Shown: in pieces, positions 1,495 to 37,516 of the stretch
Numbering within the stretch: position 1 is the first letter of the stretch
Layout: each line of letters starts with the position of its first letter
From: Mycobacteriales bacterium
GTDB taxonomy: Bacteria; Actinomycetota; Actinomycetes; JAFAQI01
Length of the DNA: 64,000 nt
NCBI GenBank assembly: GCA_035550055.1
Contig: DASZRO010000031.1
Span: 1-64,000, forward strand
Reading direction: 5' to 3'
Program-made: the position numbers and the translations under genes
Notes under the pieces: model-generated
The model's database searches: none
What the model saw: only the letters and a program-made list of their open reading frames with translations
Told to the model about the DNA's origin: nothing

Positions 1495-2070
1495 TCAGGT
1501 CGGCTCGCAGATGCGACAGGGCTTCATGCTCTTGGCCTGCGCCGCGGTGACGCGGCGCAGGCCAGGACGTCCTGACACGATCGGGCAGTCCGGGTTGTGG
1601 AAGTTGGTACCGCTGGCTGTCGCTACATACGACGCGGTGGCTGCGATACCTGCCGTGCCTGCCGATGCGGCGGCGACCGGCGCACCGCCACGCTCCGCCA
1701 GTGCCCGCAGCAGTTCCTGGTGCTGCTCAGCGGAGATCCGCAGGTTCTCGAGGTGGTGCAGCTCGGCCTGGTCGTACATGCGGTAGAGCCAGTGCGCCCA
1801 GAAGAAGAAGCCCCCGACGATGACGAAGGCCAGGCCGAGCACACCTCCGCTGATGAGGTACGGGATCTGCTGCTGGTCGACCCGGCCGTGCGCTGCACCC
1901 TGCCATCCCAGGACGATCACCGCGATGCCGATCGGCAGCAGCAACGCGCCGGCGATGGCCTGCCACGTGTTGCGCAGGTCGAGACCGTCACCACTGATCC
2001 GGTCGCGAACGCTGCGCCGAGGCTCGGCCGCGCTGCGCGCCCGCGCGCTGTCGTCGGTCACGGTGGTCAT
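1495..2070 (-). CDS. Membrane protein with C-terminal Ada-like Cys motif
   Basis: 191 residues. The ATG at 2070 overlaps the stop of the upstream gene by 4 bases (ATGA), which fixes the start; a longer reading into the upstream gene is not credible. Two hydrophobic segments lie near residues 38-60 and 73-95, followed by an amphipathic stretch. The last ~45 residues read F-H-N-P-D-C, then [20 protein letters not shown]. This matches the small Cys-rich fold resembling the Ada metal-binding domain, with His and Cys first and a PCxxC pair at the end. The role is unknown; a metal or redox sensing module at the membrane is an inference. Position between an anchored secreted protein and a chemoreceptor, downstream of a LIV importer, suggests an accessory role in envelope sensing or uptake. 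Confidence 0.75.
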
Positions 2071-6845: not shown

Positions 6846-6857
6846 GGCGGCAGCGGC

Positions 6858-8396
6858 CTACGCCGGTCCGACCGGGACGTAGCCGCTCGAGCAAGCGACA
6901 CCCTTCTTCGGATACAGCGGATACCAGTCGTCGCCCTTCACCTGGACCAGGTCGTAGCACTTCGTGGTGCCGTGCTCGCTCGGGGTGTACGGCCCGAACA
7001 TCCCGCCCGTGGTCCAGTTCTTGATCGACTTCAGCGCAGCGGTCAGTGACGCCCGCGTCGGGTTCCGGCCGGCCTTCAGCAACGCGTAGATGAACATCTG
7101 CGTGTCGGCCCAGGACTCGATGCCGAACTCGCTGGTGTCCGTCCCGGGCTCGTAGGTGGCGAGCTCGGAGGTGAACAGCTGCATCGTCGGGTTGGCCTCG
7201 GTCGTCGGGATCGAGGGCATGAAGACGACGAAGCCTTGCGCGGCGGACTCGCCCGCGGACTGGATCTGCGCCGGGCCGTAGACGCCCTGCGTGGTGAACT
7301 TCAGCTTCGGGTTGTAACCCTGCGACTGCATGTCGCGCAGCATGTCGGCGTTGCCGACGTTGTCCATGACGGTGAACACGGAGTCGCAACCCTTGGACTT
7401 CATCGTGGCGACGATCGAGCCCATGGTCGCGCCGGGTGCCGCCGGCACGGCGTAGTTCGCGTAACAGATGCCGACACCGGCGTGCTGGAGCAGTACGCCG
7501 TACTGCTTCGCGACGTCGGCGGCGACCGGGATGCTGTAGGCGAGGATCGCGACGTTCTTCGGCAGCAGACCGGCGTGCTCGAGGTTCTCGGCGGTGATCG
7601 GCGGGAGGTAGGCCTCCTTGCCCTTGATGACGAAGCTGCCGCCGTCGGCCGACCAGTAGTTCGGCACCTGCGACCGGTCGGCGTTGGCGGCGCGGCCGAT
7701 GTCCGGCACTCCCGCCGCCGTCATCTGGGTGATGCCGCCGTTGTCGCCGTCCGACGTCGAGCCGACGAACGCGAGCACCTTCGGCAGCAGGTACTCGATC
7801 TCAGCGGTGTGGGTGCTCGACGACTGCTGGTCGTCCTGCACCTTCAGGTCGATCTTGCGACCGCAGATGCCGCCGTAGCGGTTCACGGCCTCGACCGCGG
7901 CGGTCACCGCGTTGACGGCGGGGTTGAACTCCCCCGAGACGGTGCCGGTCAGGCCGCTGACGTTGCCGATCGTGATCGAGGTCGGCGTGACGCCCGGCGC
8001 GGACGCCTTGTTGCCGGCGGTGCCGGTGCAGTACGCCGCCTCGGCCTGCGGGTTGAAGTTGAAGTTTCCGACGGTCAGGTTCGCCAGCGACGAGCTCTGC
8101 GTGCCGGAGCCGGTCGCCGGGTTGGCCGACGTGCCGGGATTCGTCGCGGGGCCGGTCGTGGTGGCGGTGCCCGTCCCGGAGGTGGTGCCGGTGCCCGTCC
8201 CCGCGCCGGTCCCGAGGCCGGTTCCGTTCGTGGGCAGGGTCGCCGTGCCGGTGCCGCTGTCGCCGGTCCCGGTCGGCAGCGAACCGGTGTTCACCTGTGC
8301 ACTGCCTGACGCGCCGTAGTACGGCGAGACCCGCGCCCCGCACGCGGTCAGCACGAGGCACCCGACGATGAGCAGGGCGGAGCCAGACCGTCTCAT
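6858..8396 (-). CDS. LIV-type ABC transporter substrate-binding lipoprotein
   Basis: 512 residues. Type II signal peptide with lipobox L-T-A-C near residue 19, then about 80 residues of Gly/Thr/Ser linker. The periplasmic-binding-protein type 1 fold begins near [18 protein letters not shown]. Motifs of the family include '[13 protein letters not shown]' and the closing [19 protein letters not shown]. It captures the ligand outside the membrane and delivers it to the permease encoded next. First gene of the operon: the start at 8396 faces a palindromic motif (8410-8422) only 13 bases upstream. The ligand cannot be deduced. Confidence 0.92.
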
Positions 8397-13004: not shown

Positions 13005-14246
13005 TCAGGGCCGGTGCTTGACCACCACGCCGCCCTTCATGACGAACGGCACCCGCGCGAACGTGGTCACGTCGCTCGTCGGATCGCCGCTGACGCCGAT
13101 GATGTCCGCGAGCATGCCAGGGACGATCTGCCCTAGGTCAGGGGTGTCGATGAGGTCGGCGGCAACCGTGGTCGCGGCGCGGATCGCCTGTATCGGCGTC
13201 ATTCCCCGCTTGACGAGTACGTCGAGCTCCTCGGCGTTGCGCCCGTGCCAGATCGCGGGAGCGTCGGTCCCCAACGCGACCTTGACACCCGCCTCGATGG
13301 CCTTGGACAGCGACTCCTTGGCCTTGGGGAACACCTCCGCGGCCTTCGCCTGCAACGACTTCGGCTGGTTGGAGATGTCCCAGTTCTCAGTCAGCGCACA
13401 GGTCGAGACCAGGAACGTGCCGGTGTCGACCAACCGCTGGATCGTCTCGTCGCTGATCATCATGCCGTGCTCGATGCAGTCGATTCCGGCGTCGATCGCC
13501 GCGTTGACCGCCGCGTCCCCGTGGCAGTGGGTGGCGACCCGGATGCCTCTGCGGTGAGCCTCGTCGGCGATCGCGGCGAGCTCCTCGGTGGAATACTGCT
13601 GGGCGCCCGGCGGCCCGGTCGGTGTCATGACGCCGCCGGAGGCACAGCACTTGATGAGCTTCGCGCCATGTCTGATCTGGTAGCGGACCGCTTTGCGGAC
13701 CTCGTCGACCCCGTCGGCGATGCCCTCTTCGACACTCATCGGCATGATGCCCGGGGCGAGGCCGCTCTGCGCGCTCGGATCGAGATGACCTCCGGTCGGG
13801 CAGATCGCATGGCCGGCCGGAATCACCCGCGGCCCCTCGACCCAGCCGGCCTCGATCGCCTCTGACAGGGCGACGTCGACCAGGTAGCCGCCGGTCTTGA
13901 TGAACAACCCGAGGTTCCTGACGGTGGTGAAGCCGGCGTGCAGCGTCCGCCGGCCGTTGAGGGCCGCGCGAAGGCCCATCTTCACCGGGTCCATCCGCAC
14001 CGGGTCGGACAGTCCGGCACCCGGGCCGCCGAGGACGAGGTCCACCTCCATGTCCATCAGGCCGGGGACGAGGGTGAGCCCGGGCAGGTCGATCACCTGG
14101 TCCGCACCGGCTCCCGCCGCCAGGTCGTCGGTGACGGCGGTGATGCGGTCGCCTTCGACGACGACCTTCGCGCCGTCGAGGACCTCACCACTCGCGACGT
14201 CGAGCACGCCCTTCGGCCGAAGCAACGAGACCGTCACGTCCGACAC
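13005..14246 (-). CDS. Amidohydrolase-superfamily protein, HxH motif replaced
   Basis: 413 residues from GTG 14246, chosen because AGAAGGA lies 6-7 bases upstream; the paralogue has the same arrangement. Urease-like composite domain at the ends and a TIM barrel between. The canonical metal-binding PGLID-x-HxH is replaced by PGLMDMEVD. Other metal-site elements remain: Lys in GAKLIKCCASGG, His in ATHCHGD, His in CIEHGMM and Asp in ALGTDAP. It may use one metal, recruit other ligands, or have altered chemistry. Known relatives hydrolyse amides, dipeptides, lactones or organophosphates; the substrate here is unknown. Same operon as the paralogue upstream, 14-base gap. Confidence 0.87.
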   Translation of the reverse strand: MSDVTVSLLRPKGVLDVASGEVLDGAKVVVEGDRITAVTDDLAAGAGADQVIDLPGLTLVPGLMDMEVDLVLGGPGAGLSDPVRMDPVKMGLRAALNGRRTLHAGFTTVRNLGLFIKTGGYLVDVALSEAIEAGWVEGPRVIPAGHAICPTGGHLDPSAQSGLAPGIMPMSVEEGIADGVDEVRKAVRYQIRHGAKLIKCCASGGVMTPTGPPGAQQYSTEELAAIADEAHRRGIRVATHCHGDAAVNAAIDAGIDCIEHGMMISDETIQRLVDTGTFLVSTCALTENWDISNQPKSLQAKAAEVFPKAKESLSKAIEAGVKVALGTDAPAIWHGRNAEELDVLVKRGMTPIQAIRAATTVAADLIDTPDLGQIVPGMLADIIGVSGDPTSDVTTFARVPFVMKGGVVVKHRP

Positions 14247-14260
14247 GCTGTGTCCTTCTC

Positions 14261-15541
14261 TCACTCGCAGGAGCTCCCGTCTTCCGCGTCGCGCTTGTCG
14301 AGGAAGACCTTGCCAGCCTTCATCACGAACCGGACGTCCTGCGTCACGGTGATGTCCGACGTCGGATCGCCTGGGACGGCGATGACGTCAGCGAGACAGC
14401 CCGGCGCGAGCCTGCCGAGCTCGTCGGCACGGTCGATCAGCTGTGCGCTCGTCAGCGTCGCCGCGCGGATCGCATCCAGCGGGGACATCCCCCGGTCGAC
14501 CATCGCCCAGAGCTCCTTGGCGTTGTCGCCGTGCGGGATCGCGGGCGCGTCAGTGCCGCACGCGATGCGCACTCCCGCCGCGATCGCTCGTCCCAGCATC
14601 TCCCTCGCGCGAGGGAAGACCTCCGCCGCCTTGGCCTGCAGCTCGGGCGCCGCGCGGCTGACGTCGAGCCCCTCCGACAGATAGCTGGTCGGGACGAGGA
14701 ACGTCCCACGCTCGACCATCAGCCGGACCGTGTCGTCACTCGCCAGCGAGCCGTGCTCGATGCAGTCGACACCTGCGAGTACGCAGGCGCGGATCGCGGT
14801 GTCTCCGTGCGCGTGCGCCGCGACCTTGACGCCCGCGCGGTGCGCCTCGTCGACGATCGCGGCGAGCTCGTCGTCGGAGTACTGCTGGGCGCCAGGTTCG
14901 CCGCTGTGGGACATCACGCCGCCCGATGCCGAGATCTTGATGACCTTCGCGCCGTACTTGAGTTGGTAGCGAACGCAGGCGCGGACCTGGTCGACGCCGT
15001 TGGCGATGCCTTCCTCGATGCTCAGCGGCAGGACGCCGGGCGCAAAGCGCTGGAACATCGTCGGATCCAGATGACCGCCGGTCGGGGTGATGGCGTGCGC
15101 CGCGGGCACGATCCGCGGCCCGACCATCCAACCGTTGTCGATGGCACGGCCGAGGGCGACGTCGAGCGGGTAGCCACCAGTCTTGACCATCAACCCGAGG
15201 TTGCGGACCGTCGTGAAGCCGGCCAACAGGGTGGTACGCGCGTTCACCGTGCCGCGAAGCGTGCGATACACCGGGTCGTCCTGGACGCCGTGCATCGGCA
15301 GCGGCAGACCGGTCGGCGTCTCCGGACCGCCGATCAACAGGTTGAGCTCCATGTCCATCAGGCCGGGCAGCAACGTGAGGTCGCCGAGGTCGATCTCACG
15401 ATCGACTGGGTCAGCGACGGTTGACCCGACCGAGGCGATGCGATCGCCTGCGACGACCACCCTGGCACCGTCCAGGAGCTCACCGCTGACCACGTCGAGC
15501 ACGGCTTTCGGCCGTAGCACCGTGACCCGAACGTCTGACAC
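14261..15541 (-). CDS. Amidohydrolase-superfamily protein, paralogue lacking HxH
   Basis: 426 residues from GTG 15541 with AGAAGGA upstream. Clearly paralogous to the next gene over the whole length (shared 'TVRNLGL', 'VKTGGYxxDVAL', 'PTGGHLDP', 'GAKVIKISASGGVMSHSGEPG', 'CGTDAPAIPHG'). The first metal motif is PGLMDMELN rather than the usual HxH form. The remaining barrel residues (Lys, HAHGD, IEHGSL, GTDAP) are kept. The divergence suggests two related substrates. Promoter region 15542-15687 contains an imperfect inverted repeat at 15607-15624. Confidence 0.87.
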   Translation of the reverse strand: MSDVRVTVLRPKAVLDVVSGELLDGARVVVAGDRIASVGSTVADPVDREIDLGDLTLLPGLMDMELNLLIGGPETPTGLPLPMHGVQDDPVYRTLRGTVNARTTLLAGFTTVRNLGLMVKTGGYPLDVALGRAIDNGWMVGPRIVPAAHAITPTGGHLDPTMFQRFAPGVLPLSIEEGIANGVDQVRACVRYQLKYGAKVIKISASGGVMSHSGEPGAQQYSDDELAAIVDEAHRAGVKVAAHAHGDTAIRACVLAGVDCIEHGSLASDDTVRLMVERGTFLVPTSYLSEGLDVSRAAPELQAKAAEVFPRAREMLGRAIAAGVRIACGTDAPAIPHGDNAKELWAMVDRGMSPLDAIRAATLTSAQLIDRADELGRLAPGCLADVIAVPGDPTSDITVTQDVRFVMKAGKVFLDKRDAEDGSSCE

Positions 15542-15606
15542 TCGCAGTCCTTCTCGCATCCGAGTCAGGCGACGCCCCGCGCCGGTTTCGTTGTACTGAG
15601 AATGGC

Positions 15607-15687: not shown

Positions 15688-17187
15688 TCAGCCCGCGCGC
15701 GGTCGCGACGTGTACCGGAAGCAGTCACAGCCGGCTGAGAACTGCATGTCCCGGAACAGCGTCGGCCCGTCACGGTGCGCACTGCTGATGTCGATCCCGA
15801 AGGTACCGATGGGGTCGAACGAGGTACCCAGCTGAGAGGCCCCCTGCACCACTCCCGCGCCGGTCAGCGCGGGAGCCTTGGCGACGGCAGCGGCGAGGAG
15901 GTTCACTTCGGTGCACACCTGCACCGCGCCGCCCTTCTCGTTGGCGGTCACGATCGGAAAGGAGTGCTTGCGGAAGAACGCCAGACACTCGAGGGTGCTC
16001 GCGGGCATCGCCGACAGGGACTGCAGGTCAGTCGCCGGCAGCCAGCCAACCGCGACCGCACCGATCATCTCCTTCACCGGGTCGTTCGAGATGATGGCGC
16101 TGAGGTTCTGTTCGGATTGGAAGGCGTAGCGCGGGTAGTAGCCCTGCGTACCTGAGTAGAGCGGGAAGAAGCCACACATCCACGGCGTGGCCTCCACGCA
16201 CATGACCCGGTTGATTCCCTCGACCCGGAACCGAAGCTCTGCCCCTTGCACCGCAGCTTCCATCGCCGCCAGGCCGGCGTCGCTGCTCCCCTTGGTGATG
16301 CCGAAGGCATCGGCGACCTTCAGCCCATGCGCAGCCATTGCCGACTCGAGCGCATGCAGCCCGTCGACTGAGCTCTGCTCGTTGTCGTAGTACAGGACTC
16401 CGAGCTTGTCGCTGGATGCGCCGATGAACTTGTCCGCGATCAGCCGGGGCACCATGACCCTCGCCAGCCGATCGAGGGCGACGTTGTCGGGCATGATCAG
16501 CAGCGGCGCCTCGTCGAACTGCCGCGTCGACAGCTCAGGACCGATGCTGCCGTCGATGACGGCCACGCCCGCCTTGCTGAGGCAGCTGTACAGCGAGGTG
16601 CCGAGCTGCTGACCGAGCACGACGCTGACCTTGACGTCCTCGGTGAAGTGGCTGCAGGCCTGCTGATCGAGCTGGTCGGTCTGGCCGTATGGATTCAGGC
16701 TGAGGTAGCTCGCTTCGATCTGGTGACCCAGCACTCCCCCGTGCGCGTTGAGGTTCGCGAGGTACGCCGACATCAGCGCCTTCGGGTCATTTGCTGCCAG
16801 GCCTTTGCCGATGGCGGCAGTGAGCGTGTTGGTCGAGCCCGAGTCGAGGTAGGGGACGCCAATCGTGATCGGGCCCGGCGGCAGCGCCGAGGTCGCGACC
16901 GGCGACGCGCTGCGCGGAACGTGACCGGGCTGCGTCGGGATCGACGTCGCAGTAGCAGGCCCGCGTACGGTGGTGACCTGCCCGATCGAGCGGCCCGGAA
17001 GGCTGCTGACGCTACTCGACTCGGGTGACTGTGTCGCGGTCGCGGTGGCGGTGGTCGGCACCGTGAACTCGCCGCCGGCCGCCGACGTCTGCGCGGCGCC
17101 CATCTGGATCGTGCTGCCACAGGCGGCGAGCATGCCGATGGCCGCGCCCATCGCAGGTACCCAGAGCCGGCGAATCACGCTGCTCAC
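15688..17187 (-). CDS. Orphan LIV-type substrate-binding lipoprotein
   Basis: 499 residues, GTG start with GGGAG upstream. Lipobox L-A-A-C near residue 22, Ser/Thr linker, then a type-1 periplasmic-binding fold (ITIGVPYLDSGSTNTL, NAHGGVLGHQIE). It ends with a Cys pair (GCDCFRY) also found in the binding protein at 37513-39078 (SCTCFAY). No permease or ATPase gene is adjacent, so it must share a transporter encoded elsewhere or serve as a sensor. The TetR gene directly upstream and the strong palindrome at 17204-17227 imply its own ligand-dependent control. Confidence 0.88.
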   Translation of the reverse strand: MSSVIRRLWVPAMGAAIGMLAACGSTIQMGAAQTSAAGGEFTVPTTATATATQSPESSSVSSLPGRSIGQVTTVRGPATATSIPTQPGHVPRSASPVATSALPPGPITIGVPYLDSGSTNTLTAAIGKGLAANDPKALMSAYLANLNAHGGVLGHQIEASYLSLNPYGQTDQLDQQACSHFTEDVKVSVVLGQQLGTSLYSCLSKAGVAVIDGSIGPELSTRQFDEAPLLIMPDNVALDRLARVMVPRLIADKFIGASSDKLGVLYYDNEQSSVDGLHALESAMAAHGLKVADAFGITKGSSDAGLAAMEAAVQGAELRFRVEGINRVMCVEATPWMCGFFPLYSGTQGYYPRYAFQSEQNLSAIISNDPVKEMIGAVAVGWLPATDLQSLSAMPASTLECLAFFRKHSFPIVTANEKGGAVQVCTEVNLLAAAVAKAPALTGAGVVQGASQLGTSFDPIGTFGIDISSAHRDGPTLFRDMQFSAGCDCFRYTSRPRAG

Positions 17188-17940: not shown

Positions 17941-18711
17941 TCAGGCGCGACGCATGACCGACTCGCTCGGCAGCGGCGGCTGACCGACCGTGGTCCCGCC
18001 GTCGACCGGAAGGACGAGGCCGGTCACCTGGGCGGAGCGTTCGCTGGCGAGATAGACCGCCGCGTGAGCGACGTCGCTCGGCGAGCCGAGTCGTTGCAAC
18101 GGCTGGATGCGGGCGACGATTGACTCGGTGTCGAAGGCGGCGTTGATCTGCGTGGCGATGTTGCCCGGCGCGATGACGTTGACCCGCAGACCGAGCTCGG
18201 CGAGCTCGATGGCCGCACACCGGCTGAAGTGGATGACGCCCGCCTTCGCCGCCCGGTAGGACGAGAACCCGACCCCCGGCTGGATGCCCGCGATCGAGGT
18301 CGTGCTGATGATCGATCCGCCCGGCGCCATCCGCCTTGCCGCCGCCTGCGTGCCGAGCATGACCCCGAGCAGGTCGACGGCGATGACCTTATGGAAGTCC
18401 CGGAGGTCATCCATCATCAGTCGCCGGAATGAGCCGGAGATGCCGGCGTTGTTGACCATCACGTCGAGCTGGCCGAACCGGTCGACCGCCGCGTCGACCA
18501 CGTCGTTCACACTTGTGGCGTCCGAGACGTCGGTGCGGACGAAGTGCGCTGCCCCGCCGAGCGCGCCGGCCACCGCGGCGCCCGCGGCGTCGTCGATGTC
18601 CGCGATGACCACCTTCGCACCCTCCGCGACGAACGTCTCGGCGATCGCCTTGCCGATGCCGTTGGCGGCGCCGGTGACGATGGCGACCTTGCCGGTGAGC
18701 TCGCCGCTCAT
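17941..18711 (-). CDS. Short-chain dehydrogenase/reductase
   Basis: 256 residues, ATG overlapping the P450 stop (ATGA). Classical SDR: TGAANGIGKAIAE for the cofactor, acidic DIDD for NAD preference, NNAG, STTSIAG and catalytic YRAAK. Last gene of the seven-gene oxygenase operon running 24293 to 17941. It probably oxidises the hydroxyl group introduced by the P450 or a Rieske oxygenase to a ketone (inference from operon position). Confidence 0.92.
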   Translation of the reverse strand: MSGELTGKVAIVTGAANGIGKAIAETFVAEGAKVVIADIDDAAGAAVAGALGGAAHFVRTDVSDATSVNDVVDAAVDRFGQLDVMVNNAGISGSFRRLMMDDLRDFHKVIAVDLLGVMLGTQAAARRMAPGGSIISTTSIAGIQPGVGFSSYRAAKAGVIHFSRCAAIELAELGLRVNVIAPGNIATQINAAFDTESIVARIQPLQRLGSPSDVAHAAVYLASERSAQVTGLVLPVDGGTTVGQPPLPSESVMRRA

Positions 18712-19991
18712 CGCGCGGGCTCGAAGGTGAGATGCAGGGCCACGAGCCCGCGCAGCATGTACGTCGGCACGAACCGGAACTTGCGCTGGCCCTCCGGCCC
18801 GTGCTTGTCGGCGTCTATTCGGATCTTGCTGGTGCGGTGCAGAATCCGCTCGAGGGCGACCCGGCCTTCGGTCCTTGCCAGCGGGGCGCCCGGGCAGAAG
18901 TGGGTGCCGTGGCCGAACGCGAGATGCTCACGCGCGTTGGCACGCGCCGGGTCGAGGGCTGCCGGATCGTCAAAGCGCCGCGGGTCGCGGTTGGCGGCGC
19001 CGTTGAGCAGCATCACGGTCGTGCCCGCGGGGATGTCCACGCCGCCGACCGTCGTGCCCACCCGGGCGACCCGGAAGTCCCCCTTGATCGGACTCTCGAT
19101 CCGTAGGACCTCCTCGACGAAGTTCGGGATGGCCGTCGGATCGGCGCGCAGCGCGTCCTGGATGTCCGGGTGCTCGGCGACGATCCGCAGCGCCGACGCC
19201 AGCAGCCGCACCGTCGTCTCCTGACCGGCGGCGAACAGGTTCGCGGCAACCCGGACCACGTCGAGGACCTCCGGCGTCGATCCGTCCGGGAAGGTCGCCT
19301 CGGCCATGCGCGTCATGATGTCGGCCCGCGGCGCACGGCGGCGGTCCTCGATGTAGTGGCTGAACTTGTCGTAGAGGAACTCCAGTGGCGTGTGGGCCAT
19401 CTGGTTCGACTCTCCGGTGCCGAATCCGCTGGTGCGGGCCAGCCGATCGCGGAACTCCGGGCGATCATCGTCGGGCACGCCGAGCAGATCAGCGATCACG
19501 AGCATCGCGAACGGCGACGCGAACGCCGAGACGAACTCGCAACCGCCTTCGTCGATGAACTCGTCGAGCTGGCGGTCCGCGATCTCCCAGATCGCGGCTT
19601 CGTTCTCCTTGAGCCGCTTCGGGGTGAGCATCCGCATCGTCAGGCCGCGGTGCGCGCCGTGTTTCGGCGGGTCGAAGGTCGGTAGCTGGTCGCTGAACGG
19701 CAGCTCGTCGCGGTGCGCCTCGATGAGCGCCGTCACGTCCTCGCCGACGAGCGGCACGCTGAAGCCCGGGAACGGTCCGGTCACCGAGTTGGCCGAGGAG
19801 AAGGTGGCGGCGTCGCGGTAGACCTCGAGCGCCTCGTCGTACCCGGTGATCATGACGACGCCCTCGTGCGGCTCGCGATGGACCGGACACTGCCCGCGAA
19901 GCTGCTCGTAGTACGGGTACGGGTCGGCAAGGACGGCGCCGCTGCGAAAGAAGTCGATCTCGTCGACAGCGCTCTCGTCGCCACCGCTCAT
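18708..19991 (-). CDS. Cytochrome P450
   Basis: 427 residues from ATG 19991, which overlaps the small-protein stop (ATGA); a longer reading upstream lies inside that gene. Soluble bacterial class I type. I-helix AAGQETT, EVLR for the ExxR motif, and haem-ligand loop FGHGTHFCPGAPLART near residues 360-375. It starts DEIDFFRSGAVLADPYPYYEQLRG, very like the P450 at 29283-30560, so the two are paralogues. It needs a ferredoxin and reductase: a ferredoxin gene lies at 42471-42662 and a reductase in this operon. Hydroxylates an unidentified hydrophobic substrate. Confidence 0.95.
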   Translation of the reverse strand: MSGGDESAVDEIDFFRSGAVLADPYPYYEQLRGQCPVHREPHEGVVMITGYDEALEVYRDAATFSSANSVTGPFPGFSVPLVGEDVTALIEAHRDELPFSDQLPTFDPPKHGAHRGLTMRMLTPKRLKENEAAIWEIADRQLDEFIDEGGCEFVSAFASPFAMLVIADLLGVPDDDRPEFRDRLARTSGFGTGESNQMAHTPLEFLYDKFSHYIEDRRRAPRADIMTRMAEATFPDGSTPEVLDVVRVAANLFAAGQETTVRLLASALRIVAEHPDIQDALRADPTAIPNFVEEVLRIESPIKGDFRVARVGTTVGGVDIPAGTTVMLLNGAANRDPRRFDDPAALDPARANAREHLAFGHGTHFCPGAPLARTEGRVALERILHRTSKIRIDADKHGPEGQRKFRFVPTYMLRGLVALHLTFEPAR

Positions 19992-20320
19992 GTCACTGGC
20001 TCCCGGGTGCGCTCGAGCTGGGCCGATCCGGTGTCGACGGGCAGCGGCTGGTTCCACACCTCGATCGGATAGGACACCAGCGCGTACGAGAAGAGCAAGT
20101 GCATCAGGTTGCGCGCCGGATCCGGTAGCCCGCTCAGCTCGAACTGGTCGCAATAGTCCATCGCCGCCTCTACGCGCGGGAAGCAGGCGTCGTAGAACGA
20201 CCTCATGTCCGCCATCGAGCTCGCCAGCCGCGTGGCCCACCGGTCGGGCTCGGCGGCCAGGCACCACGTGGCGGCGAACGGCTCGAGGTCGGCGAACTCC
20301 TCCGGGAGCAGCGCGGTCAT
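19988..20320 (-). CDS. Small conserved partner of Rieske oxygenase, copy 1
   Basis: 110 residues, ATG overlapping the Rieske gene stop (ATGA). No signal peptide, membrane helix or Cys-rich motif. Homologous to the 108-residue protein at 22675-23001. Shared positions include a leading L-P-x-x-F-x-x-LEPF, W, E-x-DR-x-A-x-R-x-AS-x-M, FYDA-x-FP and P-x-E-x-W-x-QP. Each copy follows a Rieske oxygenase gene. A small structural or substrate-handling subunit is the likely role, by position; it does not look like the classical beta subunit (about 160-180 residues, cone-shaped fold). I do not recognise the family. Confidence 0.82.
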   Translation of the reverse strand: MTALLPEEFADLEPFAATWCLAAEPDRWATRLASSMADMRSFYDACFPRVEAAMDYCDQFELSGLPDPARNLMHLLFSYALVSYPIEVWNQPLPVDTGSAQLERTREPVT

Positions 20321-21582
20321 CGCGTCGCCTCCGCCTTCGGCCGGCCGGCCGCGGCGACCCAGTCGCCGACCGACTTGTGGAAGTGGCGAACCAGGATCTC
20401 CTGGTCGTTGAGGGGGTAGGCGTCGAACGCCTCCGACTCCAGGCCGAGCTGCGTCCCGTCGAGGGTGCCGGCGTCCTGAAGGGCGTACTCCTTGACCGTG
20501 ATCGCGGCGTACTCGCGGGCGAGCCGCTCCCGAGCGGTCCTGGCAGGCGTGAACCACAGGTCCGCCTCGAAGACGTGCGTACTGTGCGAGGTCGGCCAGA
20601 ACCGGTAGCTGAGGTACCAGTTCCGCTCGTAGATCAAGATCTCCAGGTTCGGGAAGATCTGGAAGTTGTCGATCCCCCAGCGCTTCACGTTCCCGGGGTT
20701 GACGCCCGCCAGCTCGCCGTCGAGGGTCCCCGCCTCCCACGGGCCCATGTTCCCGCTGCGCAGCAGCACCTCGGTGGGGTACATCGTCTCGGGCGGCCAC
20801 TTGTGCTTCTGCGAGCCGGTCGTGCTGACCACGCGGTGCGGTCCGTCGAGCTGGTAGTGCGCACCTTCGAAGGTGGCGTTCGGGTCGCGGTGGATGGGTC
20901 CGAGCTGCTCGGTGTGCAGTGGGGGTACGTGGTAGTACTCCTGAAAGGCGTCGATGAACACCTTCCAGTTGCTGTTGTTCTCGGCCCGGAACGAGTAACG
21001 CTCGGTCATCTGTCCGAACGGGTAGTTCTCGAGCGCGCCGATCATCGATCCGAGGAACTCGCGCAACGAGCACGGCGGCGTCTTGGCCAGGTTGACGAAG
21101 ATGAAGCCGGCCCAGACCTCGCAGTGCACCGCCGCGAGCCCCAGGTTGCTCTTGTCGACGTCGAAGAACTCGCTTTCCTGATGGACGTAGGTGCACGCGC
21201 CGTCCATGCCGTAGCGCCAGCCGTGGTACTTGCAGACGAACTGCCGGGAGAACCCGCGCGCCTCCTGCGTCGGCGTGGTGTCCCAGACCAGCTTGTTGCC
21301 GCGGTGCCGGCAGACGTTGTGGAACGCGCGGACGGTGTCGTCGGCGCCGCGCGTGACGATCACCGACGTCCGGGCGGCGACCAGGTCCTTGGTGAACCAG
21401 CTGCCCTTGCGCGGCAGGTCCTCGACGCGCCCGACGTTCAGCCACGCCTGCCGGAAGATCGCGTCCTGCTCGCCGCGGTAGAACTCCGGCGAGATGGAGT
21501 CCCGAAACGACACCGGCTTGGTGCCGAGCTCGGGATAGTGCTGGGTCCACGTGCCTTCGGCCGGTCTCGGCGGACTGGTCAC
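20317..21582 (-). CDS. Rieske non-haem iron oxygenase, alpha subunit, copy 1
   Basis: 421 residues from GTG 21582, decided by an ideal AGGAGG six bases upstream. Rieske 2Fe-2S ligands in CRHRGNK and CKYHGWRY (about residues 75-100). Mononuclear iron site IDAFQEYYHVPPLH (about residues 190-205), with the bridging Asp and two His. Paralogous to 23013-24293; both open with G-(T/S)-WTQH and D-S-I-S-P-E-F-Y. It would hydroxylate a ring or alkyl carbon using O2 and electrons from the reductase encoded just upstream. Not clearly a KshA orthologue; the substrate is unknown. Confidence 0.94.
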   Translation of the reverse strand: MTSPPRPAEGTWTQHYPELGTKPVSFRDSISPEFYRGEQDAIFRQAWLNVGRVEDLPRKGSWFTKDLVAARTSVIVTRGADDTVRAFHNVCRHRGNKLVWDTTPTQEARGFSRQFVCKYHGWRYGMDGACTYVHQESEFFDVDKSNLGLAAVHCEVWAGFIFVNLAKTPPCSLREFLGSMIGALENYPFGQMTERYSFRAENNSNWKVFIDAFQEYYHVPPLHTEQLGPIHRDPNATFEGAHYQLDGPHRVVSTTGSQKHKWPPETMYPTEVLLRSGNMGPWEAGTLDGELAGVNPGNVKRWGIDNFQIFPNLEILIYERNWYLSYRFWPTSHSTHVFEADLWFTPARTARERLAREYAAITVKEYALQDAGTLDGTQLGLESEAFDAYPLNDQEILVRHFHKSVGDWVAAAGRPKAEATR

Positions 21583-21595
21583 TGCTGCCTCCTGG

Positions 21596-22672
21596 TCACG
21601 TCTCGTACACCACACGCACGACCGGCGAGACGGGCACCGTCTGACAGGTCAGCACCCAACCGGCTTCGACCTCCTCGTCGGTGAGGATGTCGTTGACCGC
21701 CATCGAGACCTCGCCCTCCACGACCTGCGCCATGCACGTCGCGCAGTGGCCGGCCTCGCACGACGACGGCGCGGACATCCCGTTCCAGCGCGCCGACTCG
21801 AGGATCGTCAGCTTGTCGCGCTGGCTGACCGTCTTGGTCTCGGAGCCGACCGTGATCGTGAGAGTTCGCTCCTCATCGCTGTCGACCAGTGCCACGGCGA
21901 ACGGCGGCAGCTGCGGAAGCGCGGCCGGTGTGAAGCGCTCGATGTGGATGCAGTCGGTCGCCACACCCGAGCGGGCGAGCCCGGCTTGCACGACCTCCAT
22001 GAACCCGGTCGGCCCGCAGACGTAGAACTCGCGGTCGCCGGCGGCGTCGGCAAACGACGAGACCATGGCTTGCGAGACGAACCCGCTTGCGGCATCGCTG
22101 TGGTGGTGAAGGTCGAGCCGCTCCGGGAACTGCGCAGCGAGCATGTCGAGCGTCGAACCGAAGATGGCCGAGTCACGGTCGCGGTTGGCGAACAGCAGGC
22201 TCACCCGCCGGCTCGAGCCGTGCAGGACCGACTTCACCATCGACAGGATCGGGGTGATGCCGCTGCCCGCGGCGAACATCACGAGGTCGGCCTCGGAGTC
22301 CGGGAGCAGGAACGCCCCTGCCGGCACGCTGACCGGGAGCACGTCACCGACCGCGACCGAGTCGTGCAGCCAGCACGACACCGGGCCGTCGGGGACTCGC
22401 TTCACCGTGACCTGCAGGTCAAGGTCGGTCTCGGGAGCCGACGACATCGAGTAGCTGCGCAGGTGCGGCACGCCGTCGACGACCGCCCGGATCGTGACGA
22501 ACTGACCGGGACGGTAGGTGTAGCGGTCCGCGAGATCGGCCGGCACGTCGAATCCGATCGAGATCGCGTCGGCCGTCTCACGGACGACCCGCTGCACCGC
22601 GAGGTCGTGGTAACGATCGCTGCGCGCCGCCTCAGCCATGCCGGACGCTCGCTCGGTCAACAGGCTCGCCAC
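21596..22672 (-). CDS. Oxygenase reductase (FAD, NADH, plant-type 2Fe-2S), KshB-like
   Basis: 358 residues if the GTG at 22672 is used; it lies two bases after the preceding stop, suggesting coupling. An ATG at 22639 is an alternative. FAD domain RSYSMSSAP, NAD domain AAGSGITPILSM and YVCGPTGFMEV, and a C-terminal ferredoxin domain CEAGHCATC then a fourth Cys in VLTCQT. This domain order is that of class IA-type oxygenase reductases such as KshB, HmpA-like PaaE and related proteins. Lying between the two Rieske cassettes, it most simply serves both. Confidence 0.93.
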   Translation of the reverse strand: MASLLTERASGMAEAARSDRYHDLAVQRVVRETADAISIGFDVPADLADRYTYRPGQFVTIRAVVDGVPHLRSYSMSSAPETDLDLQVTVKRVPDGPVSCWLHDSVAVGDVLPVSVPAGAFLLPDSEADLVMFAAGSGITPILSMVKSVLHGSSRRVSLLFANRDRDSAIFGSTLDMLAAQFPERLDLHHHSDAASGFVSQAMVSSFADAAGDREFYVCGPTGFMEVVQAGLARSGVATDCIHIERFTPAALPQLPPFAVALVDSDEERTLTITVGSETKTVSQRDKLTILESARWNGMSAPSSCEAGHCATCMAQVVEGEVSMAVNDILTDEEVEAGWVLTCQTVPVSPVVRVVYET

Positions 22673-22674
22673 GG

Positions 22675-23001
22675 CTACGGGCGCGGTTCCACCGTGACGT
22701 CGATCGAGGCGGCGCCACTGTCCGGCACGTGAGGCTGTCGCCATGCCTCCACGGGAAAGGACACCGTGACCAGCGAGGAGAACAGCCAGAGCAGGTTGCG
22801 GTCTTCCTCGCAGATCCCGTCGATCGTGACGCCGGTCAGATAGTCGGTGCCGCTTTCGAGCAACGGGAACGCCGCGTCGTAGAACGCCTGGAGCTCCTCC
22901 ATCGTGCTGGCGATCCGCTTGGCGTAGCGGTCGGCCTCGCTCGGCAGGATCCACTGCGAGAACGGCTCGAGGGACGAGAACTGTGCAGGAAGGGTCGCCA
23001 T
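22675..23001 (-). CDS. Small conserved partner of Rieske oxygenase, copy 2
   Basis: 108 residues, ATG with AGGAG nine bases upstream. Paralogue of 19988-20320: LPAQFSSLEPF, EADRYAKRIASTM, FYDAAFP and PVEAWRQP align with the other copy. It follows the second Rieske gene by 11 bases. Repetition of the same gene pair in one operon argues for a functional Rieske/small-protein unit. Function unknown. Confidence 0.82.
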   Translation of the reverse strand: MATLPAQFSSLEPFSQWILPSEADRYAKRIASTMEELQAFYDAAFPLLESGTDYLTGVTIDGICEEDRNLLWLFSSLVTVSFPVEAWRQPHVPDSGAASIDVTVEPRP

Positions 23002-23012
23002 CGCCGTACTCC

Positions 23013-24293
23013 TCAGGACGCAGCCGGGACGGCCGCGGGACCGGTCTTGCTCGCTTGGTAGCGCTCGACCCATTCGCGGCAGGTCGTGTGCATGTGCCGG
23101 AGCATGACCTCCTGGTCGCACAGCGGGAACTCGGTGATCGCCCCGGACTGGAGCATGGTCTGCGTCGCTTCGAGGGTGTTCGCGTCCTGCAGGCCGTACT
23201 CCTTGAACGTGACGACGGCGAGCTCCTGCTGGAGCCGCTCGAGCGCGGTCTTGGGCGGCGCGAAGTACAGCGATGTCTCGAACACGTGCGTGTTGTACGA
23301 CGTCGGCCAGTAGTGGTAGGTGAGGTACCAGTTCGGCTTCCAGAGCAGCAGCATGAAGTTCGGGAAGAACAGGAACGAGTCGATCCCCCAGGCCGGGCTC
23401 TTCGCGGGGTTCACCCCCGGCGGCAGCTCACCGATGTCGGGCCCGTCCCACGGGCCGAACAGGCCGCTGCGCAACGCTCGCTCGATGGGCTTGACCATGT
23501 TCAGGTCCTTGGGCGGGGACATGCCACCCCACGACGAGACCATGGCGTGCGGGCCGTCCACGTCGTAGGCAAGCGCTTCGTAGCCGTAGCTCTGGAGCTT
23601 GCGCGACTCCTCGGACACCGACTGCTTCGCGTGCAGAACGGGTGCGTGGTAGAACTCCATGAAGGCGTCGATGAACAGCTTCCAGTTGCTGCCGATCTCC
23701 GACCGGTACGTGTGCTTCTGGGTCATCAGCTCGAACGGGTACGCCTCGATCCCCGCACCCATCTCGCCCATGTAGTCCCGCAGCGGCTGCGGCTCCTGGT
23801 CGAAGGTGATGAAGATGAACCCGGCCCAGACGTCGATGGTGATCGGCACCAGCCCGAACTTGTCCTTGTCGAGGTCGAAGAACTCGCTCTCCTGCTGGAC
23901 GAAGGTCAGCTTGCCGTCGAGGTCGTAGCGCCAACCGTGGTACTTGCAGGTGAACTGCCGGCAGGTGCCGTCGACCTCCTCCTTCGGGAAGTCGGTCCAC
24001 GCCAGCTTGTTGCCTCGATGCCGGCACATGTTGTGGAACGCCCGCAGCTCGCCGTCACGGTTCTTGACGATGAGCACGGAGGTCTTGGCGGCGTCGAGCT
24101 CCTTGGTGAAGAAGCTGCCCGGCTTCGGCAGCTGCTCGACCCGGCCGACGTTGAGCCAGGTCTTTTTGAAGATCGCCTCTTGCTCGAGCGCGTAGAACTC
24201 CGGCGAGATCGAGTCGCCGTACGACACCGGCTCGGTGGACAGACCGAAGTGCTGAGTCCACGAGCCCTCTGCGGGCTTGTTGAAGTGCGCCAT
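23013..24293 (-). CDS. Rieske non-haem iron oxygenase, alpha subunit, copy 2
   Basis: 426 residues from ATG 24293, supported by GAGAGGG upstream; an in-frame extension into the intergenic region is less likely. Rieske ligands CRHRGNK and CKYHGWRY, and iron site IDAFMEFYHAPVLH. First gene of the operon. It shares long similarity with copy 1, including SEFFD-(V/L)-DK and the C-terminal 'EYxLQDAxTL' segment, so a tandem duplication followed by divergence is likely. It may act on a different position or a later intermediate. Confidence 0.94.
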   Translation of the reverse strand: MAHFNKPAEGSWTQHFGLSTEPVSYGDSISPEFYALEQEAIFKKTWLNVGRVEQLPKPGSFFTKELDAAKTSVLIVKNRDGELRAFHNMCRHRGNKLAWTDFPKEEVDGTCRQFTCKYHGWRYDLDGKLTFVQQESEFFDLDKDKFGLVPITIDVWAGFIFITFDQEPQPLRDYMGEMGAGIEAYPFELMTQKHTYRSEIGSNWKLFIDAFMEFYHAPVLHAKQSVSEESRKLQSYGYEALAYDVDGPHAMVSSWGGMSPPKDLNMVKPIERALRSGLFGPWDGPDIGELPPGVNPAKSPAWGIDSFLFFPNFMLLLWKPNWYLTYHYWPTSYNTHVFETSLYFAPPKTALERLQQELAVVTFKEYGLQDANTLEATQTMLQSGAITEFPLCDQEVMLRHMHTTCREWVERYQASKTGPAAVPAAS

Positions 24294-24463: not shown

Positions 24464-25282
24464 ATGGGCACGCTCGACGGCAGGGTCGCGTTCATCACCG
24501 GCGCGGCGCGAGGCCAAGGCAGGGCCCACGCGGTGCGGCTCGCGCAAGAGGGCGCGGACATCATCGGCATCGACATCTGCGAGCAGATGGCCTCCGCGGG
24601 CTACCCGATGGGGACCCAGGACGAGCTCGACCAGACGGTCAAGGAGGTCGAGGCCCTCGGCCGCCGCATGCACGCCGTCAAGGCAGATGTGCGGGAGTAC
24701 GGCGAGGTGCGCGCGGCGTACAAGGAAGGCGTCGCCGAGCTCGGCGCGGTGACGATCGTCGTCGCGAACGCGGGCATCGGACCCGGCAACCCCGTCGTAC
24801 CGCAAGAGGACGTGTGGGCGGAGGTCATCGGCGTCAACCTCACCGGCGTGTGGAACACCGGCCGGGCAACCATCGAGTCGATGATCAAGAACGGGCAAGG
24901 CGGATCCGTCATTTTGACCAGCTCGACCGGTGGCCTGATGTCCCCGGCCGCCAACGACGCCGGCATGCTCGGTTACACCGCCGCCAAACACGGCGTCATC
25001 GGCCTGATGCGGGCGTGGGCGAACTACTGCGCGCCGCACTTCATCCGCGTCAACGCCGTCGCCCCGACCACGGTGCAGACGCCGATGGCCGGTGGCGGCA
25101 GCGTCGAGGACATCGTCAAGCACGCGCCGCACCTGTTGAACTCACTGACCAACGCCATCCCCATCCAGGCCGTCGAAGCGGCGGACATCGCCAACGCCGT
25201 GGCGTTCCTCGCGTCGGAGGAGTCCCGCTACATCACCGGAACGGTGCTGCCCGTCGACGCCGGCAACCTCGTTCGTCGCTGA
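24464..25282 (+). CDS. Mycofactocin-coupled SDR oxidoreductase
   Basis: 272 residues, ATG preceded by GGGGACGGGGAC. TGAARGQGRAHAVRLA at the N-terminus and an insertion after DICEQ (about residues 38-60) ending in VKEVEALGRR are hallmarks of the SDR group that keeps NADH bound and passes electrons to mycofactocin. Catalytic YTAAK near residue 170. Oxidises an alcohol, probably non-exchangeably bound to NAD. No mycofactocin synthesis genes are in the window, so they should be elsewhere. Followed by aldehyde dehydrogenase, 31-base gap, giving an alcohol-to-acid route. Confidence 0.88.
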   Translation: MGTLDGRVAFITGAARGQGRAHAVRLAQEGADIIGIDICEQMASAGYPMGTQDELDQTVKEVEALGRRMHAVKADVREYGEVRAAYKEGVAELGAVTIVVANAGIGPGNPVVPQEDVWAEVIGVNLTGVWNTGRATIESMIKNGQGGSVILTSSTGGLMSPAANDAGMLGYTAAKHGVIGLMRAWANYCAPHFIRVNAVAPTTVQTPMAGGGSVEDIVKHAPHLLNSLTNAIPIQAVEAADIANAVAFLASEESRYITGTVLPVDAGNLVRR

Positions 25283-25313: not shown

Positions 25314-26768
25314 ATGACCGCGCTTGCCGTCCTTGAGGAGCTTCGGGCCCGGCCCGGGTCGGGCGACACGATCGCGATCGTCGACCCGGTCACCGAAGAG
25401 CAGATCGGCGAGTTCAAAGACGGTGGGCCGGAGGCGATCGACGCGGCGGTCGCACGGGCCCGCGAGACCTTCGACTCGGGCGTGTGGCGCAACAAGCCCG
25501 GACCCGAGAAGGCCAGGATCCTCTGGAAGGTCGCGGAGCTGCTCGAAGCGCGCGCCGAGGAGCTGGCCCAGATCGACTCGCTGAACACCGGCATGCCGCT
25601 GCCGCAGGCGACCCGCAACATGGATGCCGTCATCGAGTACTTCCGCTACTTCGCCGGCTGGTGCACCAAGATCCACGGCGTCGCACGTGACATCCGGATG
25701 GCCGGCGGGCTCAACGGGTACGACGCCCGGATCCACTCGTACACGATCAAGGAGCCGGTCGGCGTCGTCGGGCTGATCATCCCGTGGAACGGCCCGGCCT
25801 TCAACGCGGCAGCGAAGCTCGCTCCGTCCCTGGCGGCCGGCTGCAGCAGCGTGCTCAAGCCCGCCGAGGAGACCCCGCTGTCGGCGCTGGTCTTCGAGCA
25901 GGTGCTCGAGCAGGCCGGGGTGCCGGAAGGCGTCACGAACCTCGTCCAGGGGTGGGGCCACACCGCCGGGCAACGACTGATCGAGCACCCCGACGTCGAC
26001 AAGATCGCCTTCACCGGCTCGACCGAGGTCGGCAAGAAGATCGTCGCGGCGGCGAACGGCAACCTCAAGCGGGTGATGCTCGAGCTCGGCGGCAAGTCGC
26101 CCACACTCATCTACGACGACGCCGAACTCGAGCGGGCGATCCCGGCCGCGGCGATGGGAATCTTCATGCACTCCGGTCAGGCGTGCGTCGCCGGATCACG
26201 GGTGTTCGTGCAGCGTGGGGTCTACCAACAGGTGCTGGACGGCATCTCGGCGTTCGCGAACCGGCTGCGGTTCGGCGGGCCGCAGGACGGCAAGGTCCAC
26301 AGCGGCCCGATCATCAGCGAGCGACAGATGAACCGCGTCCTCGGCTACATCGACGACGGCAAGAACAACGGTGCCGAGGTGGCGGCCGGCGGGCACCGGC
26401 TCGACCGCAAGGGCTGGTTCGTCCATCCCACGGTTCTCACCAGCGTCGACTCGAACACCCGGGTGTTCCAGGAGGAGATCTTCGGGCCGGTCGTGGCCGT
26501 CACTCCCTTCGACGACGATGACGAGGTGGTGGCGCTCGCCAACGACTCGACGTACGGCCTTGCCGCCGCGGTCTACACCCGCGACCTGTCTCGGGCGCAC
26601 TCGCTGGCCGGGCGGCTCGACGCCGGCAGCGTGACGCTGAACTGCCAGATGATGTGGGACGCCGACGTGTCCTTCGGCGGCTTCAAGCAGTCCGGCTGGG
26701 GCTACGAGAACGGCGAGCTCGGCCTGGACAGCTACCTGCGGTCGAAGTCCGTCTGGACGATGATCTAG
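25314..26768 (+). CDS. Aldehyde dehydrogenase
   Basis: 484 residues, AAGAGGAG before the ATG. Normal length for the family. NAD-binding FTGSTEVGKK, general base Glu in LELGGKSPT and catalytic Cys in SGQACVAGSR. Oxidises an aldehyde, likely the product of the mycofactocin-coupled SDR encoded upstream, to a carboxylate. Its stop overlaps the convergent gene's stop by 4 bases. Confidence 0.94.
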   Translation: MTALAVLEELRARPGSGDTIAIVDPVTEEQIGEFKDGGPEAIDAAVARARETFDSGVWRNKPGPEKARILWKVAELLEARAEELAQIDSLNTGMPLPQATRNMDAVIEYFRYFAGWCTKIHGVARDIRMAGGLNGYDARIHSYTIKEPVGVVGLIIPWNGPAFNAAAKLAPSLAAGCSSVLKPAEETPLSALVFEQVLEQAGVPEGVTNLVQGWGHTAGQRLIEHPDVDKIAFTGSTEVGKKIVAAANGNLKRVMLELGGKSPTLIYDDAELERAIPAAAMGIFMHSGQACVAGSRVFVQRGVYQQVLDGISAFANRLRFGGPQDGKVHSGPIISERQMNRVLGYIDDGKNNGAEVAAGGHRLDRKGWFVHPTVLTSVDSNTRVFQEEIFGPVVAVTPFDDDDEVVALANDSTYGLAAAVYTRDLSRAHSLAGRLDAGSVTLNCQMMWDADVSFGGFKQSGWGYENGELGLDSYLRSKSVWTMI

Positions 26769-36553: not shown

Positions 36554-37516
36554 GTGCCCACCAAGATGCCCCAGCCCCTCGGGGCCGTCATGTCCGTCGT
36601 CCGGTTCGCCGTCCGACACGGGTTGATGCCCGACCCGAAGAAGGCGTTGGAGAAGTCGCACGACGAGCGGCTTGCGATGCTGGTGCCACGGCTGTTCTGC
36701 AAGCCGGGCCCGGACGTGCTGACCGAGGACGTCGTCGTCGACGGTCGGGGCGGCCCGATCCCGGCGAGGGTCTACCGGCGCGCTGATGCCGCCGCCGGCG
36801 CACCCGGGATCCTGTTCATCCACGGCGGGGCGTTCATGCAGGGTGGCGTCGACTTCTGCGACAACGTGCAACGCGGGCTCGCCCACCGCACCGGTGCCGT
36901 CGTACTAGGGCTGTCCTACCGCCTGGCGCCCGACCACCCGTTCCCGGCTGCGCTCGACGACTGCGTCGACGTGGTCGAGTGGATGGCCCGGACCCGGCCC
37001 GGCGGCATGGACCCGGACCGGATCGCGATCGGGGGCGAGAGCGCAGGTGGCAACCTCACCGTCGCCGTCTGTCTGTGGGCGCGCGACCACGGCGGGCCAC
37101 GGATCGCTCACCAGAGCGTCTACTACCCGTTCACCGACTGCTCGCTGCGCTCCGCGGACTGGGACAACCGCAACCTCATGCCCGGTGTCGACCGGGCGGC
37201 AGGGGAACTCATGGTGAAGCTGTACGGCGGCGACCGTCACGCCGACCCGCTGGTCAACGTGTGCGCCGCCGACCTGCACGGCCTGCCACCGGCAACCGTC
37301 ATCACCTGTGGTCACGACGTGCTGCGCGAGGACGGGTTCAATCTGGCAGCGTCGTTGAAGGCCGCCGGCGTGGAAACCTTGCACACGCACTACGACGACA
37401 TGCCCCACGGGTTCCTGATGTTCAGCCGGCTGACCAGTCGGGCTGACGAGTCGATGGACGAGATGGCGCGGGAGACCGGCAAGCGGCGGTTCGCGGCGCT
37501 CCTCAGCACCGAATGA
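36554..37516 (+). CDS. Alpha/beta hydrolase, hormone-sensitive-lipase type
   Basis: 320 residues if GTG 36554 is used; ATG 36566 is possible. Either leaves almost no leader after the palindrome, suggesting leaderless translation. HGGAFMQGG oxyanion motif, GGESAGGN nucleophile, and a C-terminal His in HYDDMPHGFLMFS. Esterase acting on unknown esters. ATGA overlap with the binding-protein gene downstream. Confidence 0.91.
   Translation: MPTKMPQPLGAVMSVVRFAVRHGLMPDPKKALEKSHDERLAMLVPRLFCKPGPDVLTEDVVVDGRGGPIPARVYRRADAAAGAPGILFIHGGAFMQGGVDFCDNVQRGLAHRTGAVVLGLSYRLAPDHPFPAALDDCVDVVEWMARTRPGGMDPDRIAIGGESAGGNLTVAVCLWARDHGGPRIAHQSVYYPFTDCSLRSADWDNRNLMPGVDRAAGELMVKLYGGDRHADPLVNVCAADLHGLPPATVITCGHDVLREDGFNLAASLKAAGVETLHTHYDDMPHGFLMFSRLTSRADESMDEMARETGKRRFAALLSTE

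Follow-up and report, generated by a model that had tools for sequence, protein, structure and literature searches.

Rieske oxygenases bring about selective oxidations for which other routes are difficult. According to the available text of a 2025 review, their usual assemblies are alpha3, alpha3beta3, alpha3alpha'3 and alpha3alpha3, and the alpha3beta3 dioxygenases possess a non-catalytic partner subunit (PMC12445004). We analyzed a stretch of 64,000 nucleotides (hereafter the window), positions 1 to 64,000 of contig DASZRO010000031.1 from a Mycobacteriales bacterium (assembly GCA_035550055.1), in which a seven-gene operon encodes two Rieske alpha subunits, each followed by a small protein of ~110 residues. 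We propose that, in a clade of Rieske oxygenases without a classical beta subunit, this small protein probably serves as a dedicated subunit with no catalytic role.

The closest described system is the carnitine monooxygenase CntA/CntB (alpha3 Rieske, Group V), which gives the best sequence match of the window's alphas (6y9c, E 2e-28) and their best structural match (6y8j; VIA Z 26.2, root-mean-square deviation 2.7 over 319 residues), and which likewise employs a single flavin/2Fe-2S reductase. A glutamate replaces the usual bridging aspartate in the window's alphas and aligns with E205 of CntA, a residue to which the available text of PMC7948474 attributes a bridging role in intersubunit electron transfer. 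Unlike the present system, CntA/CntB is a two-component enzyme, for which a small helical protein is not described in the parts of the reports available to us. Furthermore, the Cys206/Cys209 pair of CntA (PMC10952381, available text), a Cys-X-X-Cys pair beside the iron site that is unique to some Group V members, is present in none of the 121 matched alphas that carry a small protein. The alpha3beta3 ring-hydroxylating dioxygenases (naphthalene, biphenyl, salicylate 5-hydroxylase) have the same alpha fold, but the window's small protein has no match among beta-subunit models, and its predicted structure is all-helical. As for the glycine betaine monooxygenase GbcA/GbcB, GbcA is the best NCBIfam match of both alphas (124.6 and 116.7 bits) and GbcB the second-best match of the reductase (178.7 bits, the best being PaaE with 249.2), yet the window's scores lie far under the curated cut-offs (670 and 500 bits).

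The operon and its two alpha-small cassettes

The operon (17941-24293) contains, in this order:

23013..24293, minus strand: Rieske oxygenase alpha subunit A; ATG start, 426 amino acids, with the [2Fe-2S] motif CxH..CxxH, the mononuclear-iron motif and the bridging Glu213
22675..23001, minus strand: small protein A; ATG start, 108 amino acids, predicted four-helix partner of Rieske A
21596..22672, minus strand: reductase with flavin adenine dinucleotide (FAD), NAD(P)H and C-terminal 2Fe-2S domains, PaaE/GbcB-like; start at GTG 22672 or ATG 22639
20317..21582, minus strand: Rieske oxygenase alpha subunit B; GTG start, 421 amino acids, old paralogue of A, bridging Glu215
19988..20320, minus strand: small protein B; 110 amino acids, putative partner of Rieske B, ATGA overlap with Rieske B
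18708..19991, minus strand: cytochrome P450, CYP150-like; closest solved relative CYP150A6 (6dcd, 510 bits)
17941..18711, minus strand: short-chain dehydrogenase/reductase (SDR), adh_short

This gene order, with its coordinates and the common minus strand, agrees with a preliminary description made from the DNA letters, as does the tightness of the junctions, which had been described as mostly overlapping or under 15 bases. Overlaps of 4 bp (ATGA) join Rieske B to small B, small B to the P450 and the P450 to the SDR, and gaps of 11, 2 and 13 bp separate Rieske A from small A, small A from the reductase and the reductase from Rieske B, respectively. The reductase start lies at GTG 22672 (or ATG 22639), as 22678 carries a GTA codon, so that small A is followed by the 2-bp gap and not by an overlap. 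A promoter and terminator scan of the locus was uninformative, with 0 promoters and 3 terminator-like sites vs 3.2 in shuffles.

Both alphas match the Rieske (PF00355) and Ring_hydroxyl_A (PF00848) models over cut-off, and Pfam also recognizes Fer2, NAD and FAD domains in the reductase, p450, and adh_short in the SDR. The sequences of small A, the reductase and the P450 carried 3, 2 and 1 residues upstream of their likely starts in the Pfam, NCBIfam and PDB searches and in the pairwise comparisons. Those cofactor motifs that were examined are intact, with CxH...CxxH at residues 90 and 91 of alphas A and B, ExYHxxxxH at 213 and 215 and LQDA at 368, CxxxxCxxC in the reductase and FGxGxHxCxG in the P450.

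The two cassettes had been described as duplicated. Their paralogy is clear, with 51% identity over 406 columns between Rieske A and B and 43% over 106 columns between small A and B. A recent tandem duplication is not supported, since the alphas fall into different sub-clades of the tree and look like an old paralogue pair. In a 69-row tree, the window's alpha B groups (support 100/100) with the B alphas of L113, L117, L137 and two further genomes; two alpha-small cassettes together with a reductase and an SDR are also found in the Mycobacterium loci L112, L117, L125, L126 and L137 and in the Nocardia locus L113.

Linkage of the small protein to one alpha clade

A search with the small protein retrieved 80 loci, taken with 6 kb on each side and shortened by contig ends in 18 cases, which span Streptomyces, Frankia, Nocardia, mycobacteria and uncultured actinobacteria. 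In these loci, each of the 86 small genes immediately follows a same-strand Rieske alpha, one alpha being broken (L134) and another cut by a contig end (L122). The small protein thus does not occur mostly without Rieske neighbors, an outcome that the preliminary description had named as contrary to its proposal. The family is also present in 15 plasmid records, all of which were examined, and in 14 of them an alpha adjoins the small gene. The order is reversed, with the small gene ahead of the alpha, in L201, L216, L222 and one pair of L028; adjacency that is kept in both orders indicates that the linkage outlives rearrangement. With starts called roughly, the commonest alpha/small junction is a 4-bp overlap (33 of 123), a count that left 4 small genes unpaired (L122 at a contig edge, L134 with the broken alpha, L026 with an alpha remnant and L028 with the small gene upstream), and in five loci alpha and small protein share one frame, separated by a single TGA. 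On plasmid pRSMS1 of Sphingobium sp. RSMS (L204, 2302-8995), an alpha-small pair lies between two copies of one IS21-like element (istA/istB, same protein accessions), and this flanking suggests that the pair may move as a composite unit.

The linkage was also examined from the side of the alphas. Of 396 genomes sampled from the window's phylum, 13 have the small protein (the window's genome among them, and 10 belonging to one family), and these 13 and no others hold alphas that match Rieske A at E<=1e-100. There are 32 such alphas, each adjoining a small gene by coordinates, and the next alphas drop to 1e-43 to 1e-44; as the scan scored the best 4 candidates per genome, the alpha beside G435:C64 falls outside this count. 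A PF00848 search of six genomes (36 matches, 30 loci examined) gave 15 alphas with a small gene, which score E<=2e-170 on a clade profile built mostly from alphas having a small gene, and 15 without, which score 1e-117 or worse. Of the four PF00848 alphas examined in the window's own genome, two carry a small gene.

Phylogeny places the alphas that have a small gene in a single clade. In a 47-row tree, which includes alphas from an alpha-first plasmid search (22 records, 20 examined; H33 and H35 were left out and look like copies of H32 and H36) and omits the split alpha of L202, this clade comprises 32 rows with support 100/99. A small gene is found, on either side, in 30 of the 32, that is, beside 30 of 30 unbroken alphas, and beside 0 of the 15 alphas outside the clade. 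The two remaining clade rows are near-identical alpha fragments beside IS6100 on Sphingobium plasmids (L218, L220), in which the 5' end of the alpha and apparently also an upstream small gene are missing beside the IS6100. Their nearest relative, L222 (support 85/39), bears a small gene at the very end that L218 and L220 have lost. The earlier 69-row tree agrees (clade support 100/98); it looked on the downstream side only and labeled L028_11914 as lacking a small gene, which lies upstream and was counted as present in the 47-row tree. Among the bacteria sampled, alphas of this clade therefore lack the small protein only as broken copies, which makes it probably an overlooked subunit.

Of the 122 alphas paired with a small protein, 117 match the CxH...CxxH pattern and 121 have the bridging glutamate, the remaining one being unmatched by the pattern used. 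We considered this glutamate as a marker of the clade and dropped it once 12 of 15 alphas lacking a small protein proved to share it.

Alphas and small proteins also diverge together. In a mirror-tree comparison of 122 pairs, from which exact duplicates alone had been removed, their distances correlate with r 0.85, and random shuffles reach at most 0.23. Exchanging small proteins only between paralogues within a genome or locus (17 groups) brought r down to a mean of 0.66 with a maximum of 0.78, and 0 of 500 exchanges reached 0.85. This fall indicates that the match is between cognates and not merely between species.

Nature of the small protein and its possible roles

By sequence comparison, the ~110-residue protein is a widespread family without a name. 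At least 561 relatives were found in one collection. In a sample of 395 genomes from the phylum of G446 (the genome of locus L097, titled Proteobacteria), the family occurs in two, G446 itself included. Small A and B have no significant Pfam match and no NCBIfam match, and 30 family members have no Pfam or NCBIfam family in common, every weak match being confined to one member. The profile of these 30 found nothing credible in the PDB (best E 0.13); we set aside the weak hidden Markov model matches to PDB entries (best E 0.05 and 0.13), which look like chance helical matches. The profile of classical beta subunits (PF00866) was matched by 0 of the 30 members at E<=0.1 and by neither window copy at E<=1. 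The small protein thus matches no known unrelated family, the other finding that would have spoken against the preliminary description.

Conserved positions include P5, F8, W17, R25, R29, Y41, L70 and E85, followed in the tail by Q89, D94, E105 and P106. No cysteine is conserved, and the only column in which histidine is commonest has it in 31 of 88 sequences. The absence of conserved cysteines or cofactor ligands argues that the protein is not a ferredoxin or another electron carrier.

AlphaFold2 (AF2) predicts small A alone as four helices (6-17, 22-31, 34-56, 65-87) and a tail (88-108) without secondary structure, with a predicted local distance difference test (pLDDT) of 91.8 and a predicted template-modeling score (pTM) of 0.83. 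This predicted all-helical fold would differ from the mixed alpha/beta cone fold of beta subunits. Among solved structures, Foldseek finds no match to it at E<=0.001 (the best has E 2.2), and VIA scores stay under Z 5, the highest being 4.9. We also modeled the 548-residue chain obtained when the TGA between alpha and small protein of L106 is read through, a linker of natural sequence, with a 97-row alignment in which most rows are unpaired. In this model (pTM 0.83), the helical body of the small protein has a blockwise pLDDT of 93-98, and the tail becomes a strand (539-544, pLDDT 77-84) that is absent when the small protein is folded alone, a weak hint that the tail may dock on the alpha.

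Classical beta subunits keep other company. PF00866 is matched over cut-off six times, in two of the six genomes, and no match lies near an alpha with a small gene; most lie within ~1000 bases of alphas without one. Genome G015, which carries three alpha-small pairs, also has a block of ordinary alpha-beta dioxygenases (G015:C1 ~91000-137000), with five genes over the PF00866 cut-off and several alphas that lack a small gene.

The subunit reading, which we hold to be likely, draws on the linkage, the single clade, the pairwise co-evolution, the intact cofactor motifs, the missing conserved cysteine, the predicted helical fold and the occurrence of beta genes beside other alphas only. The preliminary description had called the small proteins a new type of partner subunit; the genetic partnership is upheld by linkage, clade and the lack of a known family, and we infer physical binding, its stoichiometry and a role in stability or electron docking. 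Our working model is that each alpha would be translated together with its own small protein and that the two would form one complex, probably built on an alpha trimer. The helical body and conserved C-terminal tail may stabilize the alpha and form the surface given elsewhere by a beta subunit or a second trimer. Electrons from NAD(P)H would reach the Rieske cluster by way of the FAD/2Fe-2S reductase (21596-22672), a component that both alphas would share, and then pass, as for CntA E205, through the bridging glutamate to the mononuclear iron of the neighboring subunit, where O2 would be activated for monooxygenation. The product may often be hydrolyzed by the linked amidohydrolase considered below.

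Several observations weigh against this reading. Many of the 80 loci come from related species, and their counts are not independent. On the plasmids, the alpha of L202 is split by a frame break, and in Cupriavidus necator C39 (L026) the small gene has upstream of it only a 23-30-residue alpha remnant (best E 1e-4). The read-through model of L106 has a mean pLDDT of 79.9, its linker forces proximity, and it is judged from pLDDT, pTM and secondary structure. NTF2-like proteins, the fold class of Rieske beta subunits, occur in the neighborhood: plasmid clusters L024, L028, L029, L217 and also L025 (there an "ester cyclase") have an NTF2-like protein and a small ferredoxin near the pair, and 23 of the 80 loci show weak NTF2-like frames at a distance of up to 6 kb (one is SnoaL_4). 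It follows that the small protein does not have to stand in for a beta-like partner. With classical beta genes absent near small-bearing alphas in the six genomes and NTF2-like neighbors present, simple replacement of beta by the small protein is neither shown nor excluded. Finally, an assembly factor or chaperone would give the same linkage.

This last point leads to the main rival, which we judge unlikely yet the most serious: the small protein would be an assembly or maturation factor (a chaperone, an iron or cluster loader, a factor for trimer assembly) that is absent from the finished enzyme. Linkage, translational coupling and pairwise co-evolution would be the same as for a subunit, and a predicted helical protein without a cofactor motif suits such a role. 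However, a generic loader needs no copy per alpha, nor would it track the divergence of each alpha as the paralogue swaps indicate, and the protein has no conserved cysteine with which to hand over a metal or a cluster. Less probable still, at perhaps an outside chance, is a regulatory or coupling component akin to the effector proteins of other oxygenases, whose transient binding would tune reductase docking, substrate access or uncoupling. Residues conserved in body and tail without a cofactor fit this idea, and the title of PMC9361823 reports that ferredoxin binds at the boundary of alpha and beta in an alpha3beta3 enzyme, but the predicted docking of the tail, if real, would suggest a lasting contact. 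That the small protein acts alone (as an enzyme, a regulator or a toxin-antitoxin-like half) and merely shares an operon with Rieske genes is very improbable: homology to no known family leaves room for other functions and the C. necator C39 gene adjoins only a remnant, but the linkage survives order reversal (L201, L216, L222, L028) and, in both phyla, is confined to a single alpha clade, and no phage-record relatives were found at E<=0.01.

Neighboring genes and the putative pathway

Beyond the seven genes, four neighbors bear on the pathway:

14261..15559, minus strand: amidohydrolase, prolidase/Cc2672-like, with ExN replacing HxH; a homologue lies directly behind the small gene in 52 of the 80 related loci
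13005..14264, minus strand: second amidohydrolase, with ExD replacing HxH; 4-bp overlap with the amidohydrolase 14261-15559
24464..25282, plus strand: divergent mycofactocin-coupled SDR (TIGR03971); close relatives adjoin the alpha-small pair in 1 of the 80 loci
25314..26768, plus strand: aldehyde dehydrogenase; relatives of >=40% identity in 0 of the 80 loci, distant ones in 30

The amidohydrolase at 14261-15559, which lies outside the region covered by the preliminary description, has a homologue (>=45% identity, >=300 residues) in 62 of the 80 loci. It aligns over nearly its full length with Cc2672 and Xaa-Pro dipeptidase amidohydrolases and with ochratoxin hydrolases (3mtw, 274 bits; NF051886, 382 bits), but remains under the curated cut-off of the NF051886 Xaa-Pro dipeptidase (382 vs 500 bits). 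In place of the first-strand HxH (HVH in Cc2672), ExN stands in the window's copy and in 89 of 94 related open reading frames, which include repeats of the same gene in overlapping loci; the other 5 were unmatched by the pattern. By eye, the later His, Lys and Asp motifs of linked amidohydrolases (window 13005-15559, L112:4891-6153 and other loci) look intact. We put at about even odds the broader proposal that alpha, helical small subunit and ExN amidohydrolase would constitute a new quaternary type within a three-gene oxidize-and-hydrolyze module in Actinomycetota, the alpha-small pair also occurring on proteobacterial catabolic plasmids.

The divergent SDR had been taken for a mycofactocin SDR, correctly, as it passes the TIGR03971 cut-off (337 vs 300 bits) and the mycofactocin radical-SAM gene is present in its own genome (G000, 644.5 bits). 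The further suggestion that the seven genes, this SDR and the aldehyde dehydrogenase form one pathway is weakly supported, and the idea, also put forward there, that they would hydroxylate one hydrophobic substrate step by step is speculative. Relatives of >=40% identity recur among the 80 loci as follows: the reductase in 22, the P450 in 7, either SDR in 1 each and the aldehyde dehydrogenase in 0. Distant members (E<=1e-8) are common, with some aldehyde dehydrogenase in 30 loci and some SDR in 42, and a dehydrogenase or aldehyde dehydrogenase step is therefore plausible, though not with these orthologues.

Several genes within window positions 10452-42408 recur beside alpha-small pairs in related actinobacteria, which places the operon in a larger catabolic island. 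Shared with the loci L061, L065 and L073 are an acyl-CoA dehydrogenase (10452, 66%), a TetR regulator (12339, 67%), a second P450 (29283-30560, 73%), a quinone oxidoreductase (39048, 69%) and another acyl-CoA dehydrogenase (41107, 75-78%). The flanks at 15688-17187, 37513-39078 and 2067-8396 hold putative substrate-binding lipoproteins and ABC transporter genes, judged by eye from their translations and probably serving uptake; 15688-17187 has no Pfam match. Ten further neighbors from five loci comprise, by Pfam, three acyl-CoA dehydrogenases, a thiolase, SnoaL_4 and Amidohydro_2 in L098, Amidohydro_2 in L061, CMD in L081, MarR in L112 and TauD in L137. These gene assignments suggest that alpha-small loci may have a CoA-ester catabolic setting.

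Where the putative substrate is concerned, CYP150A5 of M. marinum makes 4-hydroxy-beta-ionone (PMC6237146, available text), and the P450 accompanies the pair in 7 of the 80 loci. A terpenoid substrate and abscisic-acid catabolism are leads only; the abscisic-acid papers that turned up contain no occurrence of "rieske". The proteobacterial plasmid clusters (L024, L025, L028, L029, L217) carry acetamidase, asparaginase or dihydroxypyridine-dioxygenase genes, and nitrogen-containing substrates are suggested there. Of note, the nearest-scoring alpha outside the clade (L169, E 1e-117) has no small gene; judged by eye, the open frame behind it resembles an NTF2-like protein.

Titles and abstracts retrieved from the open-access literature describe no small partner of this kind. 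If the whole clade needs a small protein that is annotated as "hypothetical", heterologous tests of its alphas without the small protein may fail for this reason. The ExN amidohydrolase, in turn, poses the question of what role a metal hydrolase may have without the histidine pair that normally holds the metal.

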